From Phlegmacium glaucopus (Eukaryota; Basidiomycota; Agaricomycetes; Agaricales; Cortinariaceae), in contig MU130013.1 of NCBI GenBank assembly GCA_015039465.1, positions 280,729 to 332,770 on the forward strand: a stretch of DNA of 52,042 bases, read 5' to 3'. The notes below the pieces were generated by a model that saw only the letters and a list, made by a program, of their open reading frames with translations, did no database searches and was not told the origin of the DNA. Positions 1-50,054 of the stretch are shown here, piece after piece. How positions within the stretch are numbered: position 1 is the first letter of the stretch; each line of letters opens with the position of its first letter. Made by a program: the position numbers and the translations under genes.

Positions 1-1371
1 ATAGACCGTCTAAAGTCGTGACGAAGTGTGACAGAACACCGACACAAGGTATAGGCACGTCACACTAGTAGTCTACGTCTGTGTTATACGTATGGTAGTC
101 CTCTCTTCTGCCGTCTAGACTGTAATAAACTTACAGGAAAGTCGTGACGAAGTGTGAGAGGATACCGACATAAGGTCTAGGCGTGTCACATTAGTAGTCT
201 ACGTCTGTGTTACACGTATGGTAGTCCTCTTTTCTATCGCCTTAACTGACCCGGACTTACAGGAACGTCGTGACGAAGTGTAAGAGGAGACCGACATAAG
301 GTCATTACTCTACGTCTGTGTTATACGTATGGTAGTCCTCTCTACTGTCGTATAGACCGTCTAAAGTCGTGACGAAGTGTGAGAGGACACCGACATAAGG
401 TCTAGGCACGTCACACTAGTCGTCTACGTCTGTGTTATACGTATGGTAGTCCTCTCTTCTGTCGTCTACACTGTCTTCTACTTACAGGAAAGTCGAGACG
501 AAGTGTAAGAGGACACCGACATAAGGTCTAGACACGTCACATTAGTCGTCTATGTCTGTGTTATACGTATGGTAGTCCTCTCTTCTGTCGTCTTAACTGT
601 GGTAAACTTACGGAGTCTTGACGAAGTCTGACCGAGGTAAGGAAAGAGGAAGGGTGTGTCTCGAAGGTAACTGTCCGGTAAGATGAAGGTATACAAGAGG
701 TCTACAGACTAAAAAGACCTTCGGTTCGATTACGACTACCTGTAGGAAGCTCCGACAAGGAAAACTACTTTGGTTTTAAGAGAAAGTTTTTGGCAAGTCG
801 TAGTTAATGGTAATACCGGTTCCCGAAAACAAAGATCAAAGACAACATTCACTTTAAGTAAAGGTCGTTAGTCTAGTGAATGTAAATGGGTTTAAAAATC
901 GAATATATCACGTACGTAACGTCAAAGGTTGAAAGGATTTTATGAGTTTGTTAGGTAGGTAGCATCGTCTCTACAAACCTTTTTTACAAAGTTGACTAGT
1001 CTAGGTAACAACAACAGACGTATTCACTTCACTTTCCGGGTCGATAGTGTTCGTATACGTTCTCGAAGTCTTTATAGAAGTACAGAGGAAAGACGGTTCA
1101 TCCTGTGTTGAAAAAACCAACTGGTAAGAAACAGGTAGTTACTGTCTGTGACTACACGATCCCTAAATACACTTTGTAATCCCAGTTCCATCACGAAACT
1201 CCTTTCTTAAACTAATGACTACTTTAGTATCTTTCTACGTACGTCATAACTCTACACGAATTGACCCACAACTCTACTACCTTATATATAGTTTCTTACT
1301 TCCCTTCTTTCCCGTAAGAATCGAACGAGATACCCGTTAACGTGGTTTTCTGACTACCGTGAGTATCTTTC
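1..1371. other. Mirror-written block (reversed, not complemented) of the NACHT/WD40 gene
   Basis: Read from 1371 to 1 without complementing, this block becomes normal coding DNA. It gives a post-NACHT helical region (motifs such as LHASFYDFISSQ and YLDPNVSHKSLAHQCLSLM), then, across a 49-nt GT-AG intron (mirror bases 882 to 834, gtaagt...ctag), an IDAERFL segment, a linker, and five and a half WD40 repeats with the phrase SPDGMHIVSAS. Base 1 then joins base 1372 in frame inside a repeat (AVLKSARY|AVFSPDGM, the same phrase as an internal repeat at mirror 370-340). Only 1371 as the break keeps the frame. As written, and in its true reverse complement, the block shows no such coding. No cellular process reverses DNA without complementing it, and the edge coincides with window base 1, so this is best taken as an artefact or an edit. 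One repeat (mirror about 315) lacks some seven residues. Confidence 0.95.
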
Positions 1372-2716
1372 TGCTGTCTTCTCTCCTGATGGTATGCATA
1401 TTGTGTCTGCATCTGCTGATTACACAGCACAGATCTGGAATACAGCCACAGGAGAATGTGAAGCAGTGCTGAAAGGACATTCAGACCAGGTTAATTCTGC
1501 TACCTTTTCTCCTGATAGTATGCACATTGTGTCTGCATCTGATGATCACACTGTACGGATCTGGGGTACAGCCACAGGAGAGTGTGAAGCAGTGCTGAAA
1601 GGACATTCATCCTGGGTCAGATCTGCTGTATTCTCTCCTGATGGTATGCATGTTGTGTCTACATCTGATGACACTGCACTTATCTGGACCACAGCTACAG
1701 AAGAGCATGAAGGAGAGCTGAAAGGACATTCATCTTGGCTCACATCTGCTGTTTTCTCTCCTGATGGTATGCATGTTGTGTCTGCATCTGCTGATCACAC
1801 TGCACTGATCTGGAACACAGCCACAGGAGAGTGTGAAGCAGAGCTAAAAGGACATTCATCCTGGGTCAGATCTGCTGTCTTCTCTCCTGATGGTATGCAT
1901 GTTGTGTCTGCATCTGATGATCACACTGCACTGATTTGGAATACAGCCACAGGAGAGTGCGAAGCAGTGCTGAAAGGACATTCAAATGGTGTCAGATCTG
2001 CTGTCTTCTCTCCTGATGGTATGCATATTGTGTCTGCATCTGATGATTGCACTGCACGGATATGGAACACAGCCACAGGACAGTGTGAAGCAGAGCTAAA
2101 AGGACATTCAAACTGGGTCAGATCTGCTGTCTTCTCCCCTGATGGTATGCACATTGTATCCACATCTGATGATCATACTGCACGGATATGGAATATGGCT
2201 ACAGGAGAGTGTGAAGCAGAGCTAGAAGGACATTCATCCTTGGTCACATCTGCTGTTTTCTCTGCTGATGGTATGCATATTGTGACTGCATCTGATGACC
2301 ACACCACATGGATCTGGAATACAGCCACAGGAGAGTGTGAATTAGAGCTAAAAGAACATACCTCTGTTCCATCTTCATCTGATAACATTCAATCACATGT
2401 TGTATCACCATTGCCCGATGGTGTTTTTACCTGGAAGGGTACTTATGGTGACATCCATCTCTCATCCCAGCCATATTTCCTTGCAATATCTGAAAACACC
2501 ATATTCCACACTGGAAACCTTCAGACAATCTGGATTCCACCTCCTTTATGCAACCCACAAGTTATAAGTCTGTATCAGTCTAAGATATTCCTTGGATATA
2601 TATCAGGAGATGTTTTGGTTTTGGAGGTATGCATAATTCTTGAATGTTACTCAGCATTTTATTTCATTGCTCTGACTTAGCTCAACATTTTCTCTCAAAT
2701 ATAGTTTCTGGATTAG
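1372..2716 (+). CDS. NACHT/WD40 receptor-like protein, C-terminal part
   Basis: This is the 3' part of a STAND (NLR-like) gene whose 5' part is mirrored in 1-1371 and continues outside the window. Seven and a half near-identical WD40 repeats of about 42 residues are visible, each with SPDGMH(I/V)VSAS, (I/R)IWNTATGECEA and (V/E)LKGHS. A degenerate last blade follows (TWKGTYGDIHLSS ... IWIPPP ... LGYISGDVLVLE). The open frame runs to 2680, but a 78-nt GT-AG intron at 2627-2704 (phase 0) gives the usual short last exon FLD and a stop at 2714-2716; that model is preferred. The ATG at 1394 is only an internal methionine. In this family the WD40 domain forms a propeller that senses or binds partners and the NACHT ATPase signals; ligand and partner are unknown here. 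The repeats are nearly identical at DNA level, which suggests ongoing homogenisation. Confidence 0.85.
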
Positions 2717-4555: not shown

Positions 4556-5400
4556 ATGTCGGAGTAATTCCAGAACAGATGGAACAGAACTGGAACAGAT
4601 GGAACAGAACTGGAACAGTAATGGAAAGGACTATGGTCTCAGTGTATGTGCTGTGCCACCCAACTCCTATAGTGTCCTGATTTTGGAACTGGAAGAGCAA
4701 GGAACAAGATGGAAGCCTCAGCAACTTAGAGGATGAACAAGAGGAGGAAACTAAGTTGATATTTGAAACTGAGGAAAACATACAAGCTTCAAGTACTTAA
4801 ATAATAATGAGGAATAGCAACTGAATGTAAAAGATAAATATAAAGTGCTGCGTTCTGCTCCTGGAAAGTCCTGCATTCTTGGGTGAATAATCTGATACTA
4901 GTGTGCTGACTGATAATGGGAAAGTGATGACAAAGAATAGTCATTATAGTGAAGATGTTGGAAACAGGTTTGGAGTAATGCCAGAAGAGCCAGAATGATG
5001 TCTTGTAGTTGGATGTAGGAAGAGTAGATCCAGATACAAGGGGAAGCACTGGTACAGAGTATGGACTACCGGAGACAGCTTCACTGGAGCTGGACCAGAG
5101 TAATGTAAGACGGAATGTAACAAACAATTACTACACCACTCTGTCCCTCCTGCATTCTTGAGTGAGTCATCCACTGATAAGATAATACTTGTCATATAAC
5201 AAAGGGTTGATGACAGATAATGTTGACAAAGATGACTGATAAGATAAGATGTTGGGGATTAGCTTGGAGTAATGGTGGAAGGGCCAGAATAATACAGATA
5301 ACTGTCAGATCTGAAAGAAGGAGGAGTAATAGTCATGAGTCAGAGTGAGGTGTTACAGTCACAGCTCTGTAAGAACCAGTGATGGAGCAACCCATGACTG
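4556..5400 (+). repeat. Dispersed repeat A, copy 2 (longest)
   Basis: It has the same ordered words as copy 1 and copy 3. It opens with a short tandem of GGAACAGATGGAACAGAACT (4572-4618). After the region shared by all three copies come three related sub-blocks that start near 4855, 4960 and 5150, with repeated phrases such as CCTGCATTCTTG(G/A)GTGA. The frames on the minus strand here (4425-5195) are by-products of this repeat, with no recognisable protein motif. Confidence 0.65.
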
Positions 5401-7209
5401 AATTGTAACAAGTGTATATAATACATTAATTCTGAGTATTACCCCTAAATGAATGAAATATTCTGTGAAAATTGCAATATTCTTATATATTCTGATGTCA
5501 ATCATCCACATCCTCAATCCTGCTCATCATCTCAGTAATATGTCTCCCCAGTCTAACTAACTTCATCAAGGATGAGCTTACAAGTGCTAAAGAGGCCTCA
5601 GTGAGAAATATGGGGAACACAAGGTAAGGGTATGGATATTCAGATCCTTCTAGAAATTATCACAAGGAATTTTATCAATTTTATGCTCTGAGTCATGTAG
5701 CTCTTTTTTTAAGGATTTTTTTTGCAATTTTTATTATTATCAAAATCCATTGAGAATTGGTCTAGCTACACCTCCTGCATGGTTGTCCTGCTTCATCAAA
5801 TTTAGAATATGTACAAATAAAATTGAAAAATGTATGTACTGCACAATCCAACTTCACAGAATAATGATGGACAAATGTAAGGGTTTTTTTTGTATTTATA
5901 GGTACAGTTTAGAGCATGTGAGAGCCTCTGCCATTGAGAGGTGTTGAAAATTCCAGGAGTTTGTAAAAAAAAGTAATGCAAAGTCACATCAAAAGTGATG
6001 AGATTTTCAGGTTCCACATTTCTGCAGTCTTGGTTTTGCACAGGGTTTTCTGGTCTTTATTGTCTGTCTGTTTTCAGAGTTTAAAATGGATCAGTGCATT
6101 TATCACAAAGTGTCACAGTCAAAACACAAAAATCAATGTTTTGCATTTTGTGCCCCAAGGAATAAACTGCTTGCCTTGATGTTTTGCAAGGCAAGTGTCA
6201 TGGCATAGAAAAGTGTTTCTACAAAAAATTTTGAAATGCTGTCCACTTGATCTGACCTGAAATTCACATAATTTAGGCCATCAAAGGTAATGCCCACCAC
6301 TGTAAAAAATCCTACTCTCATTCATTTAGTTCCTTCTCCCTGTTAGGGAACAACTGGTAAAACAGTTATGCCTTACAGTCACACTTCTTGGGGAACCCCA
6401 TAAGCATTGTTATTGACCAAGGTGCAGAACCACTATCTGTGCCTTAACTACTTATACTAACTGTACATGGTCTGTGCACTTATTTGTATGTATGTATGTA
6501 GTGATAAGAATCATCCATGAGTAATACTAAACTACTAAGTGGACACCTATCCAAATCATGACAAAGATGTAATGACTAAGACTACAGAGCTAAGGCTGAG
6601 AGACAGGTAAGATGGGCACTAGGGTAGGAAGCTTGTGATGGGACATCATGGTGACAGAGGGTGTAGGGTGTGTGCTGGAGGTCAGAGCAATAGCATAGGG
6701 TGATCATACAATGTGTGAGATTGATGGTGATGGTAATGCTATGCATAGGCTGGGAGGCATAGGGTAGGACTAAAGGGAAGTCCCCTTACACTCCCGGAAA
6801 AACTTGGTAGTCATATTTCTATAAGGCTTAAGAATGACTGTAGAAAAATTGAAGAAGCCAACTTTTGGTGGGAGAGAGGAAATCAACTATTATAAACTCC
6901 TGTAATGGTACAAACTCCTGGTCACTCATTCCATGCATTGGCCAATCCACAATGTTCACATGATTCTGTTGCTCCTGCTTAAGTAAATACTACGACCTGT
7001 CAGAGATTTAAAATTAGTGAGTGTCAATGCTGACATAGTTTTTCAACCATACACCAGCTCTCATAGCCCTCCCACACTATGACATTCCCATAAAAATTAA
7101 ATTTTAAAAAAGTGATGTGTAACTACTTAAACAATAATGTGGGTATATATTGCTATGCAGGTGTACTGGAGTAAATGTCATTATGACCTAATGGTTAATT
7201 GTGATGTAA
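5401..7209. other. Intergenic, AT-rich, no gene seen
   Basis: There are only short frames without recognisable motifs. A (TATG)n tract lies near 6484-6500. Nothing else could be assigned. Confidence 0.55.
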
Positions 7210-21853: not shown

Positions 21854-23297
21854 ATGGCTCAAACATCCGTATCCCAAAAGCACCTTTCGGAAGCACTGCG
21901 ACTCTTGCATGAGTTTCGTGACTCAGGTCATGACATGCCCTACCAGTCCGCTGGGGCTCAGAGAAACAAGGACATCCGAGGGCCAAAGACCCATACCGAC
22001 ATGCGCGTACTCGACATGATCGCTGTTTGCTTGACCACTGGAAAACCCGGCGATGTCGTTGCTGCTGCCTTCGACAAACACGAGGGTATCACTCTTGTTC
22101 TAGCAAAGAATGGGGACGTCCTTCCTGCGGACTATGCGGCGACGGCTACATTCTTGTCTGCTTTAGCAAGGGCCAGTGGTTGGATAGACCTTCTCCCTTT
22201 CCTAGCCAGACACAGCAAAGAAAACTTGGACAAGCGGATCAGGAATCTACACCAATCCATCACAGATATCAACAACGATTTACAATCGGCAGTCGCGCGA
22301 CATCCGTTTCGGACTATGGAAGAAGAGTTTCCCCGCCCAAATTATTACAGCGCCATGTATCCGGGTCAGCGAGTAACAGCCGATCGCGTGCTTGACGACC
22401 TCATTCGCACATGCAGGGACGCATCCACATTCGAGATGCAAGAAGACCGGACGTCGTTCCAGCAATATGTGCAACTCTTCGGCGCTGCAGAAGCTCTACA
22501 GAACTCTCGTTTTTTGCGCCTCTTCAATAGCGATAGCAATATTATGAATTCGGAGCGCAGGGAACGTGCGGAGAGGTTGAAGCGACGTCTAGCGAAAATT
22601 TGCCAATACGCCAGAATCGGGCAACTTATAAAGTTGGTGAAGCGATTACCCAATATTCCGTTCCGCTGGGTTGAGGGAAACCTCATTGGCACGGGAGAGG
22701 GGGCATTTGAGATTTGTACAGACCCGACGGATGCCATGAACCGCGGACTGCGGGAAGAGCTATCGTTAAAGGATATGGATGCAATCAACGAGCGTTTTCC
22801 TCAGTTGGCCAGAAACTGGGAGCAGCGGCGATTCATTAACCCACGCATCCATGCCGAACTTCGTATCATTCTCCATCTCAGCCCATTGTTGCTGTCAAGA
22901 TCGCTTACGGATTTCCTACACCTACGCGCGGCACAGCTACCCATTGGTTGCAGCAAACGGAGCTGTCTTTGTTGTGTGTTGTGGATGAACGCATTCAATT
23001 ACGATACTAGGATGCTATGGATGACGAGCGGTTCTCATGGCAAGCCATGACAACTGGGCACTTCCAGGCGCAGCAAGCGAGATGGAAGGGGTCAGAGCCT
23101 GGCGTGGTTTTGATCAATACGTTATCAAGGGTGTTTACGCGCGGCTAACAGATGCCTTAGATTGGGTTAGGGATTCAACTCGGATCTCTGATGAGCATGC
23201 ATCCAGTGGCTATGATAGCGACACTGCTGGAAATGCTCGTGTTCGGAGGATTTTGGCTGGCGATGTACTGGCTCTCCCAGTCTCATGGATTGATTGA
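21854..23297 (+). pseudogene. OTT_1508-like deaminase, near full length with one frameshift
   Basis: The open frame from ATG 21854 runs 398 codons to a TGA at 23048. The next frame then continues with HDNWALPGA, FDQYVIKGVYARLTDAL and DWVRDS to a stop at 23295-23297, just as expected for the family tail, so a single frameshift lies near 23045. The cytidine-deaminase-like zinc motif is complete: H-A-E at about residues 332-334 (IHAELRIILHL) and CSKRSCLCC at 366-374. Fungal members of this group are of unknown substrate; roles in nucleic-acid modification or host defence have been proposed for related bacterial effectors, and that is inference here. No intron is needed. The gene sits exactly between two copies of a chitin synthase relic. 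It could be a recent pseudogene, or the frameshift may be an assembly error. Confidence 0.75.
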
Positions 23298-47712: not shown

Positions 47713-50054
47713 TCATCGGTGTCGATTTTTGTAACTTTGAAGAAGGTCTTGTGAATTGGTGACATTTCGCTCGGGTTCCCAGGTGTTTTCTGCAGTTGAA
47801 TGTCCTTTCCATTTTATAAGGAAAGTGTATCCTCTTCCCTGTCGTCTGTGGGAGATTATTGACTCAACTTCGTACTCCGGTTGGCCTTCGATAAGGTCAG
47901 GAGGTGGTTGTGGGAAGTTATCACCATAGACTCCATTTGTCTTGTAGGGGAAAAGTAGCGTGATATGAATGACTGGGTGAATTCTCCAGGAGCGAGGTAA
48001 TTCCAGGTGGTAGCTGAGGGACTTAGAACTTCTATGACTTTGAAGGGGCCTTCTCGCTTAGGTGCCATTTTCTTGGTTTCGTATCGTAATTTAAGGTATT
48101 GTGACTCGAGCCACACCTTATCTCCTATCTTGAATGGGGTGAAACCTCAGGTAATACGTTCGGTCATGACTTGTCGTGCGAGTTCATGGGCCGCATTGGC
48201 TTCTTTCCGTGCTTCTTGGAGATTGATAAGGTGTTCTTGGGTGTCAGGGATGTTGGTTCTAGGGAGTGTGGTGGGGATAGCGGTTGGGTTATAACCCATT
48301 TGGAGGAATAGGGGAGATTCTTTTTGCGTAGCATGTGGTTTGGTATTCTAAGAGAATTCAAGGGTGGGGAGATATTGTCGCCATTGGTCAGGGTTATTTG
48401 CACAGAAGATGGATAGATAAGCTTCAAGTTCTTGGTTTGCTCTTTCGGTAGCTCCGTCTGTCTGTGGGTGATGGGCTGTGCTCATGACTAGGTTGATACC
48501 AAGAAGTCGTCCTAATTCACAAAAGATGTGAGAGGCGAATTGGGGGCCACAGTTGGAAATAGCTTTGTCCGGTAATCTGTATCTTTTGTAAAGTGAGTCA
48601 AGTAAAATAGAGGCGGTTCCGTTGGCATCAATTGTTTTGTGGCATGGAGTTAGAATTACCCCCTTCATAGACCTGTGGTCGACCACGACCATGATAGAGT
48701 CAAAGCCATCGGAGGGAGGGAGATCTGTAATGAAATCCATAGTGATCAGAGAGAATGGGCGGAGTTGTTCTGAACGAATAGGTTGTAAAGGCGGGGAAAT
48801 AGGGTGTCGGTTTATCTTATGTTGTTGACAAATGGCGCAGCCATCAACGTAGTTTTGAATGAATGTAGCCATTCCGGGCCACCAATAGTTGCATTGGACT
48901 AGGTTATGGGTAACAAGGCGGCCAGGGTGTCCAGCAGGGATAGAGTTGTGATGTTTTCGAACAATATTATGGCGTAAGTCCATGTTATCAGGTACATAAC
49001 AGCGGTTTTTATAGAAAACCAGGTCACCGTTGGTTCGCCAGTCACTAAGGGCAGAGCGCATAGGGAGGGGCCTGCCATGGAGGATCGCATGTAAGGCGGT
49101 TTTGACGACGTCATCCATTTGTTTTGTAGAGGTTATGAGCTTTTGGAGTTCCATGTCGATGGCATTAACGAAAAGATTGTTGGGGAGTAATGTGCGGTCT
49201 TTGTTGTTGTTTTCCATTCCAACAGTAAGGTTGGCACGCCGTGAAAGGGCATCGGATTGAACCATTTGGGTTCCAGGTACGTGTGTGAGGTGAATGTCAA
49301 ATTCAGAGAGGAAAAGGCTCCATCGAGCTTGTCGTCGATTGAGTTTTTGAGCGGTTTTGAAGTAGGTTAGGTTCTTGTGATTGGAGCGTACGGTGACTGG
49401 GTATGGGTTTCCCATCAAATAGTGTCGCCATTCTTTGAGGGCTCAAATAATTGCTAGAAGTTCTTGGTCGTAAATTTTGTAGTTTCGTTCTGTATTGTTG
49501 AATGACTTGGATAGATATCCACAGGGGTGCCAGTCTCCATTGCTATCTTGTTGTCGTAGTACTGCTCCTGAGGCGTATTTAGAGGCGTCCGTTTTGAGTT
49601 CAAAGGGATTTGTTGTGTCAGGCATCCGTAGAACTGGGGATTTGGTGAATGTCCTTTTCAGTGTTTCGAAAGCTTGGCTTTGTTCGGGTGTCCATTCAAA
49701 TTTGGTGTCTTTCTTGAGTAGGTCGTTAAGTGGTTTTGTCATATTGCCGTATCCTTGAATAAATCGTCGGTAGTAGTTGCCAAAGCCTAGGAATGAGCAG
49801 ATTTCATGTACTGAAGTAGGTGCAGGCCAGTCAGCGATTCCAGCAAGTTTTACAGGGTCCATAGCGAGTTTGTTTTCTTTGATGACTAGTCCTAGGAATT
49901 CCACTTTGGTTTGCCAAAAGGCGCATTTCTCAGGTTTAAGGTACAGGTCGTTGTCGGCGAGGCGTTGGAGGATTCGTCTGGTGTTTTCCATGTTCTCGGC
50001 AATTGTTTTGGTGAATATGAAGATGTCATCCATGTAGATGACGACCCATCCTTC
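47713..50054 (-). pseudogene. Ty3/Gypsy pol: reverse transcriptase end, RNase H, integrase, chromodomain
   Basis: The minus-strand order is EGWVVIYMDDIFIFTKT (RT with intact YMDD), FLGFGNYYRRFIQGYG, RNase H (ELKTDASKYASGAVLRQQD ... NYKIYDQELLAII), integrase zinc finger (HHNSIPAGHPGRL ... CAICQQHK) and core (TMDFITDLPPSDG, then SNCGPQFASHIF, then TERANQELEAY). Next come the GPFKVIEVLSPSATTWNYL region and a chromodomain (EYEVESII ... FLIKWKGHSTAENTWEPE), ending KNRHR. TGA at 49443-49445 and 48147-48149 replace Arg codons, and a TAG lies at 48348-48350. The second integrase Asp is Asn (SNCGPQF for SDxGPQF), so integration would be lost. The 5' side is cut by the family 2 element at 50055. Chromodomain Ty3 elements usually target heterochromatin. 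Confidence 0.88.

Follow-up and report, generated by a model that had tools for sequence, protein, structure and literature searches.

The gap-side end of a Phlegmacium glaucopus NACHT-WD40 gene is written backwards in the genome assembly, most likely by a gap-extension step

The window, that is, the whole stretch of DNA analyzed here, comprises 52,042 nucleotides of Phlegmacium glaucopus and corresponds to C15:280729-332770 in an assembly of 60.5 Mb and 259 contigs. Its left end carries the 3' part of a NACHT-WD40 gene, of which the first 1,371 bases stand in reversed, uncomplemented order (the mirrored block) and the rest in normal order. The parts of the gene are as follows.

1..1371, no strand assignable: mirrored block, 3' part of the NACHT-WD40 gene; its true order runs from 1371 down to 1, uncomplemented.
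12..599, no strand assignable: mirrored WD40 repeats, to be read uncomplemented and toward lower coordinates (positions 5012-5599 of locus L017, minus 5000).
594..830, no strand assignable: mirrored linker between the NACHT part and the WD40 repeats, with 95% identity to an intact paralogue.
834..882, no strand assignable: mirrored 49-nt GT-AG intron, donor at 882 and acceptor at 834; the same splice occurs in protein P0001.
886..1371, no strand assignable: mirrored C-terminal part of the NACHT exon, with 93% identity to the intact paralogue.
1371..1372, no strand assignable: join between mirrored and normal sequence, spanned by 0 alignments of the family set as written and by 177 after reversal in place.
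1372..2680, plus strand: normal continuation of the gene, with further WD40 repeats, the C-terminal tail and the stop codon, from profile match and frame.

Elsewhere in the window, a 398-residue open reading frame (ORF) at 21854-23050 carries a C-terminal OTT_1508-like deaminase domain, and positions 48348-49418 of the minus strand hold a retrotransposon fragment with integrase zinc-binding and RT RNase H domains.

The first-pass annotation of this DNA had claimed that window bases 1 to 1371 are reversed without being complemented, and comparisons of 16-mers, reading frames and Markov scores confirmed that the observation is real. When the block was read in plain reversal, 268 of its 1356 16-mers were found in the window, versus none as reverse complement or as mere complement; as written, no 16-mer of the block matched the sequence from 1372 onwards. 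A phrase at the left that was said to be the plain reversal of a WD40 phrase further right is exactly that, the 20-mer occurring once, at 69, and its reversal once, at 2025. Open frames in the block do not exceed 57 residues on either strand as written, or 96 residues after complementing only, while the longest open stretches of the un-mirrored block reach 189 and 277 residues, in two frames. The repetitive nature of the WD40 array, in which partial matches could mislead, might let an ordinary inversion or an inverted repeat pass for a mirror, but the absence of any reverse-complement 16-mer against 268 in plain reversal, together with open frames of at most 57 residues as written against 277 un-mirrored, reduces the probability of this explanation to practically nil.

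The same annotation had also described the un-mirrored block as a NACHT-WD40 coding stretch with a 49-nt GT-AG intron and an in-frame join to base 1372, and both descriptions were borne out. The intron (window 882 down to 834) ties the two un-mirrored frames into one, the un-mirrored block contains no frameshift, and the resulting reading of 876 residues crosses from window base 1 into base 1372 and continues to the stop codon at 2678-2680. The breakpoint at 1371/1372 is exact: one base more or less destroys the frame, and a repeat copy within the block carries identical junction letters, which also fixes this position. The WD40 profile PF00400 matched window 1394-2680 with an E value of 5.7e-77, and further repeats lie in the un-mirrored block. 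The NACHT part is absent from the fetched sequence of the window locus and would fall within an N gap. Once un-mirrored, the gene is an ordinary member of the fungal NACHT-WD40 family, consisting of a NACHT-side exon, a linker and a WD40 array.

An order-5 Markov comparison, with a model trained without the window, returned a single mirrored segment, at 7-1364; the other 50.7 kb of the window contained no such segment. Under this out-of-sample model, the three thirds of the mirrored block scored -134, -68 and -49, and 5 of the 101 500-base blocks of the remaining window scored below 0, with a minimum of -7.4. A smaller first model had been noisier: in two sets of normal held-out blocks, 4 of 50 and 9 of 47, respectively, scored below 0 (minimum, -20).

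A protein match after un-mirroring, which had been proposed as a check, was obtained with P0001, a deposited P. glaucopus "WD40 repeat-like protein, partial" from a separate contig of 5,280 bases. P0001 aligns without gaps to un-mirrored residues 1-451, agrees with them in 446 of 451 residues and has the same splice, a comparison that concerns this block only. It passes the join (residue 441) by 10 residues and then ends, and it includes the NACHT part that is missing at the window locus (PF24883; E value, 9.7e-24). Among the 51 of 959 candidate matches in the assembly that were scored in six frames against P0001, the intact paralogue at C15:350-352 kb ranked first (94%), and the block did not turn up there in ordinary order. 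When the normal WD40 ORF was used as a protein query, no protein of the window locus was recognized among the best 120 of 5645 matches, which were dominated by general WD40 proteins. Relative to the paralogue, the un-mirrored block showed a dN of 0.078 and a dS of 0.138, and the normal flank showed a dN of 0.038 and a dS of 0.096; these values are compatible with purifying selection acting on the gene as read after un-mirroring.

The intact paralogue (L026; C15:348544-352700) shares about 90% identity with the restored window gene. The two represent a local duplication, being encoded on opposite strands of one contig with about 65 kb between them. The assembly as a whole gave 95 matches of P0001, and around fifty NACHT-WD40 loci were present among the 51 candidates scored, many of them with in-frame stop codons. 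The mirrored blocks make counts of NACHT-WD40 genes close to gaps unreliable.

Comparison with the source contig, the other check that had been proposed, showed that the assembly holds the block exactly as written (100% match, C15:280729-282099). A gap of 2,811 Ns in the assembly ends directly before window base 1. The first-pass annotation had blamed a file-level reversal; its attribution to a data-processing fault rather than to a biological inversion stands, but the fault is not a one-off of the window file, as the block is in the assembly, lies beside a gap and recurs elsewhere. A reversal that arose only in the making of the window file, perhaps planted there as a test, would account for the block beginning exactly at window base 1. 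That start, however, coincides with the end of the N gap, the assembly carries the same letters, and mirrored blocks occur at loci unrelated to the window, which contradicts this explanation unless the whole assembly was altered; we regard it as very improbable.

When the assembly was queried with the mirrored block in its written order, 16 matches were obtained, namely, the block itself and 15 others at 74-84% identity, which added 8 further loci. In a Markov scan, each of the nine loci (the eight others and the window's own) had exactly one mirrored zone, and none was found in L026, in L010-L016 or in the rest of the window. The model for this nine-locus scan was trained partly on the same loci, and the window was therefore rescanned with the out-of-sample model described above. 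Mapping of the NACHT, linker, WD40 and tail segments showed that the gene breaks at the edge of the block and resumes at the block's opposite end, with break and resumption agreeing to a few residues in L019, L021, L022 and others. With the rough edges of the Markov scan, paralogue alignments spanned a join after reversal in place in 3 of the 9 loci. When the edges were refined from the segment mapping, 8 of 10 blocks regained their contig-facing join upon reversal in place, and none of the 10 regained its gap-facing join; as written, none of the 20 joins was spanned by alignments. The two blocks without a restored join were L022b and L024, whose contig-facing joins probably lie outside the gene family.

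Mirrored sequence was present on both sides of a gap in L018, L021, L022 and L025. After un-mirroring, open frames in the other blocks reached 656 and 531 residues, and the 656-residue frame, obtained by reversing the mirrored piece of L021, contains an aspartyl protease domain, versus 75 residues for the piece as written. Used as a query, this retrotransposon-type piece of L021 found one further copy only (373 bases, 100%, C224:302943-303315), which is mirrored in the same sense and lies about 11 kb from the L021 flank, as though a single extension had been inserted beside two gaps.

In all nine NACHT-WD40 loci, the mirrored zone adjoins either an assembly gap or a run of As: N gaps lie at the block in five loci, and an A25-A27 run occupies the same place in the other four. 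The run is 25 As long in three loci and 27 in L018, a length to which neighboring As would add. Across the genome, the plus strand has 157 exact A25 runs and 0 exact A24 runs, and the minus strand has 1 of each. We took the 25-A runs to be plus-strand placeholders, because real DNA in arbitrarily oriented contigs would give near-equal numbers on the two strands, and we infer that the As stand for the Ns of short gap placeholders. At L011:2777-2876, a 100-N gap lies beside a NACHT-WD40 match (C105) with no mirrored flank found, so the fault does not occur at every gap.

These data also bear on the notion that the fungus itself contains mirrored DNA, with strands copied or joined in parallel orientation. 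The recurrence of blocks at several loci of one gene family would fit this notion, but we know of no polymerase or recombination step that yields it. Moreover, the un-mirrored frame is intact at the dN of 0.078 and dS of 0.138 given above, the blocks adjoin gaps and one-stranded 25-A runs, and P0001 has the ordinary order. The chance that the mirrored DNA exists in the organism is minute in our judgment.

To look beyond one gene family, we analyzed 19 other loci centered on A25 runs and, as a control, the single T25 site; these loci were chosen before their sequence was seen, though not at random, and L034 contains a second A25 run. None of the 20 loci gave a NACHT-WD40 protein match, either as written or reversed. 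We counted a flank as mirrored when a segment spanned the A run or ended at most 100 bases from it. With leave-one-out Markov models at a strict setting, 7 of the 19 A25 loci had a mirrored flank (L028, L030, L035, L037, L042, L044, and L045), and the T25 control showed no mirrored segment. The only additional segment at this setting, in L031, adjoins an N gap. The remaining 12 A25 loci showed no mirrored sequence next to the A run under the strict setting, which would miss short extensions. With a laxer setting (penalty 10), 10 of 19 loci had a segment at most 100 bases from the A run, but four segments that do not lie beside a gap also appeared (in L029, L032, L033, and L035); because of these four stray segments, we used the strict count. 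L032 had been called mirrored under the first model, which gave 4 mirrored loci of 9, and this call was lost with the leave-one-out model at the strict setting.

When the mirrored flank of L037 was reversed, it matched ankyrin repeats (PF00023; E value, 6.8e-48), and as written it gave no ankyrin repeat match. For L028, L029, L032, L035, and L044, each mirrored at some setting, the call rests on composition alone because their open frames were not clearly longer when reversed. The fault is not limited to one gene family. Counting the eight other NACHT-WD40 loci and the seven A25 loci, it lies beside fifteen gaps apart from the one at the window.

Our preferred reading, to which we assign a probability of about 95%, is that the gap-side end of the NACHT-WD40 gene was written backwards beside an assembly gap, most likely by a gap-extension program that inserted its extension in reversed order. 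The reversal in place, the adjoining gap, the recurrence at gap edges (on both sides of some gaps) and the one-sided excess of A25 runs were observed directly, and we assign the fault to a gap-extension step during assembly because the blocks are in the assembly, lie beside gaps, recur and come with 25-A placeholders. Such a step would have written its extensions reversed between the normal contig end and the gap, and the same step would have turned placeholders of 25 Ns into 25 As. We predict that the gene has its ordinary orientation in the living fungus.

A PBJelly-type flank extension, applied to an ALLPATHS-LG draft, is the likely candidate for this step. In its general methods statement, a JGI study that discusses P. 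glaucopus reports that Illumina genomes were assembled by ALLPATHS-LG and that hybrid ones were patched with PBJelly (PMC7550596). According to the passages on gap handling in its description (PMC3504050), PBJelly treats 25 or more Ns as a gap, lengthens flanks even where the gap is not closed, and overfills some gaps. Two other articles, in the passages that mention P. glaucopus, do not give its genome assembly method (PMC4692070, PMC8480192). The un-mirrored sequence is more accurate than we would expect of raw early long reads, which counts against the PBJelly part of our reading. This high accuracy would fit the same artifact arising from another gap filler, a scaffolder or an in-house patching script. 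On the other side stand the flank extension, the 25-N gap definition and the overfilled gaps described for PBJelly (PMC3504050) and the use of PBJelly for hybrid genomes in the JGI study that includes P. glaucopus (PMC7550596). On balance, we lean toward PBJelly as the responsible step and hold another program to be a tentative, though real, alternative.

The faulty gap extension of our preferred reading brings no new biology; it is a data-quality warning, and the fault is wider than the first-pass annotation had supposed. None of the titles and abstracts screened described assembly blocks in letter-reversed order or reversed PBJelly extensions, and the passages of PMC8081667 that concern PBJelly and bugs contain nothing on reversed sequence. 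It seems to us an even bet that we are dealing with a systematic, unreported software fault that left letter-reversed sequence at dozens or more gap edges, with the 157 A25 runs as its tags, and that other drafts from the same step carry hidden mirrored genes. A search of bacterial and archaeal genomes for mirrored 16S rRNA, by two reversed patterns of 22 and 21 bases, gave 0 exact matches, a search that misses variants and had no positive control. As rRNA may be rare at gap edges, this null says little beyond the fault not being common in prokaryote genomes.

Mirrored blocks would give rise to truncated genes, false intergenic DNA and domains that are invisible at gap edges, and a plain reversal is overlooked by ordinary similarity searches. 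Two cheap flags are available for the fault: the counts of exact A25 versus T25 runs and the comparison of a genome Markov model with its own reversal. If the fault is indeed systematic, a mirror-aware composition scan combined with the A25/T25 ratio would expose other affected drafts. In P. glaucopus, the counts of NACHT-WD40 genes and the gene models near gaps need to be rechecked.

Reversed, uncomplemented order is known from other settings. In a mirror repeat, as in H-DNA-type motifs, two halves in reversed, uncomplemented order are adjacent; the block described here shares that order, but the scored matches to P0001 revealed no copy of it in ordinary order in the assembly. Chiral (mirrored) DNA controls likewise have a reversed nucleotide order, but they are described as sequences used as controls (PMC6430799), whereas the coding mirrored blocks found here match the fungus's own gene families. 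With PBJelly, our case shares the extension of contig ends into open gaps and the definition of a gap as at least 25 Ns; its description, in the passages on gaps and flanks, mentions neither letter-reversed output nor A placeholders (PMC3504050), so the reversal seen here would be a fault of that program. Finally, compared with fungal NACHT-WD40 (NLR-like) proteins, the un-mirrored gene is an ordinary member, and only its written sequence differs.
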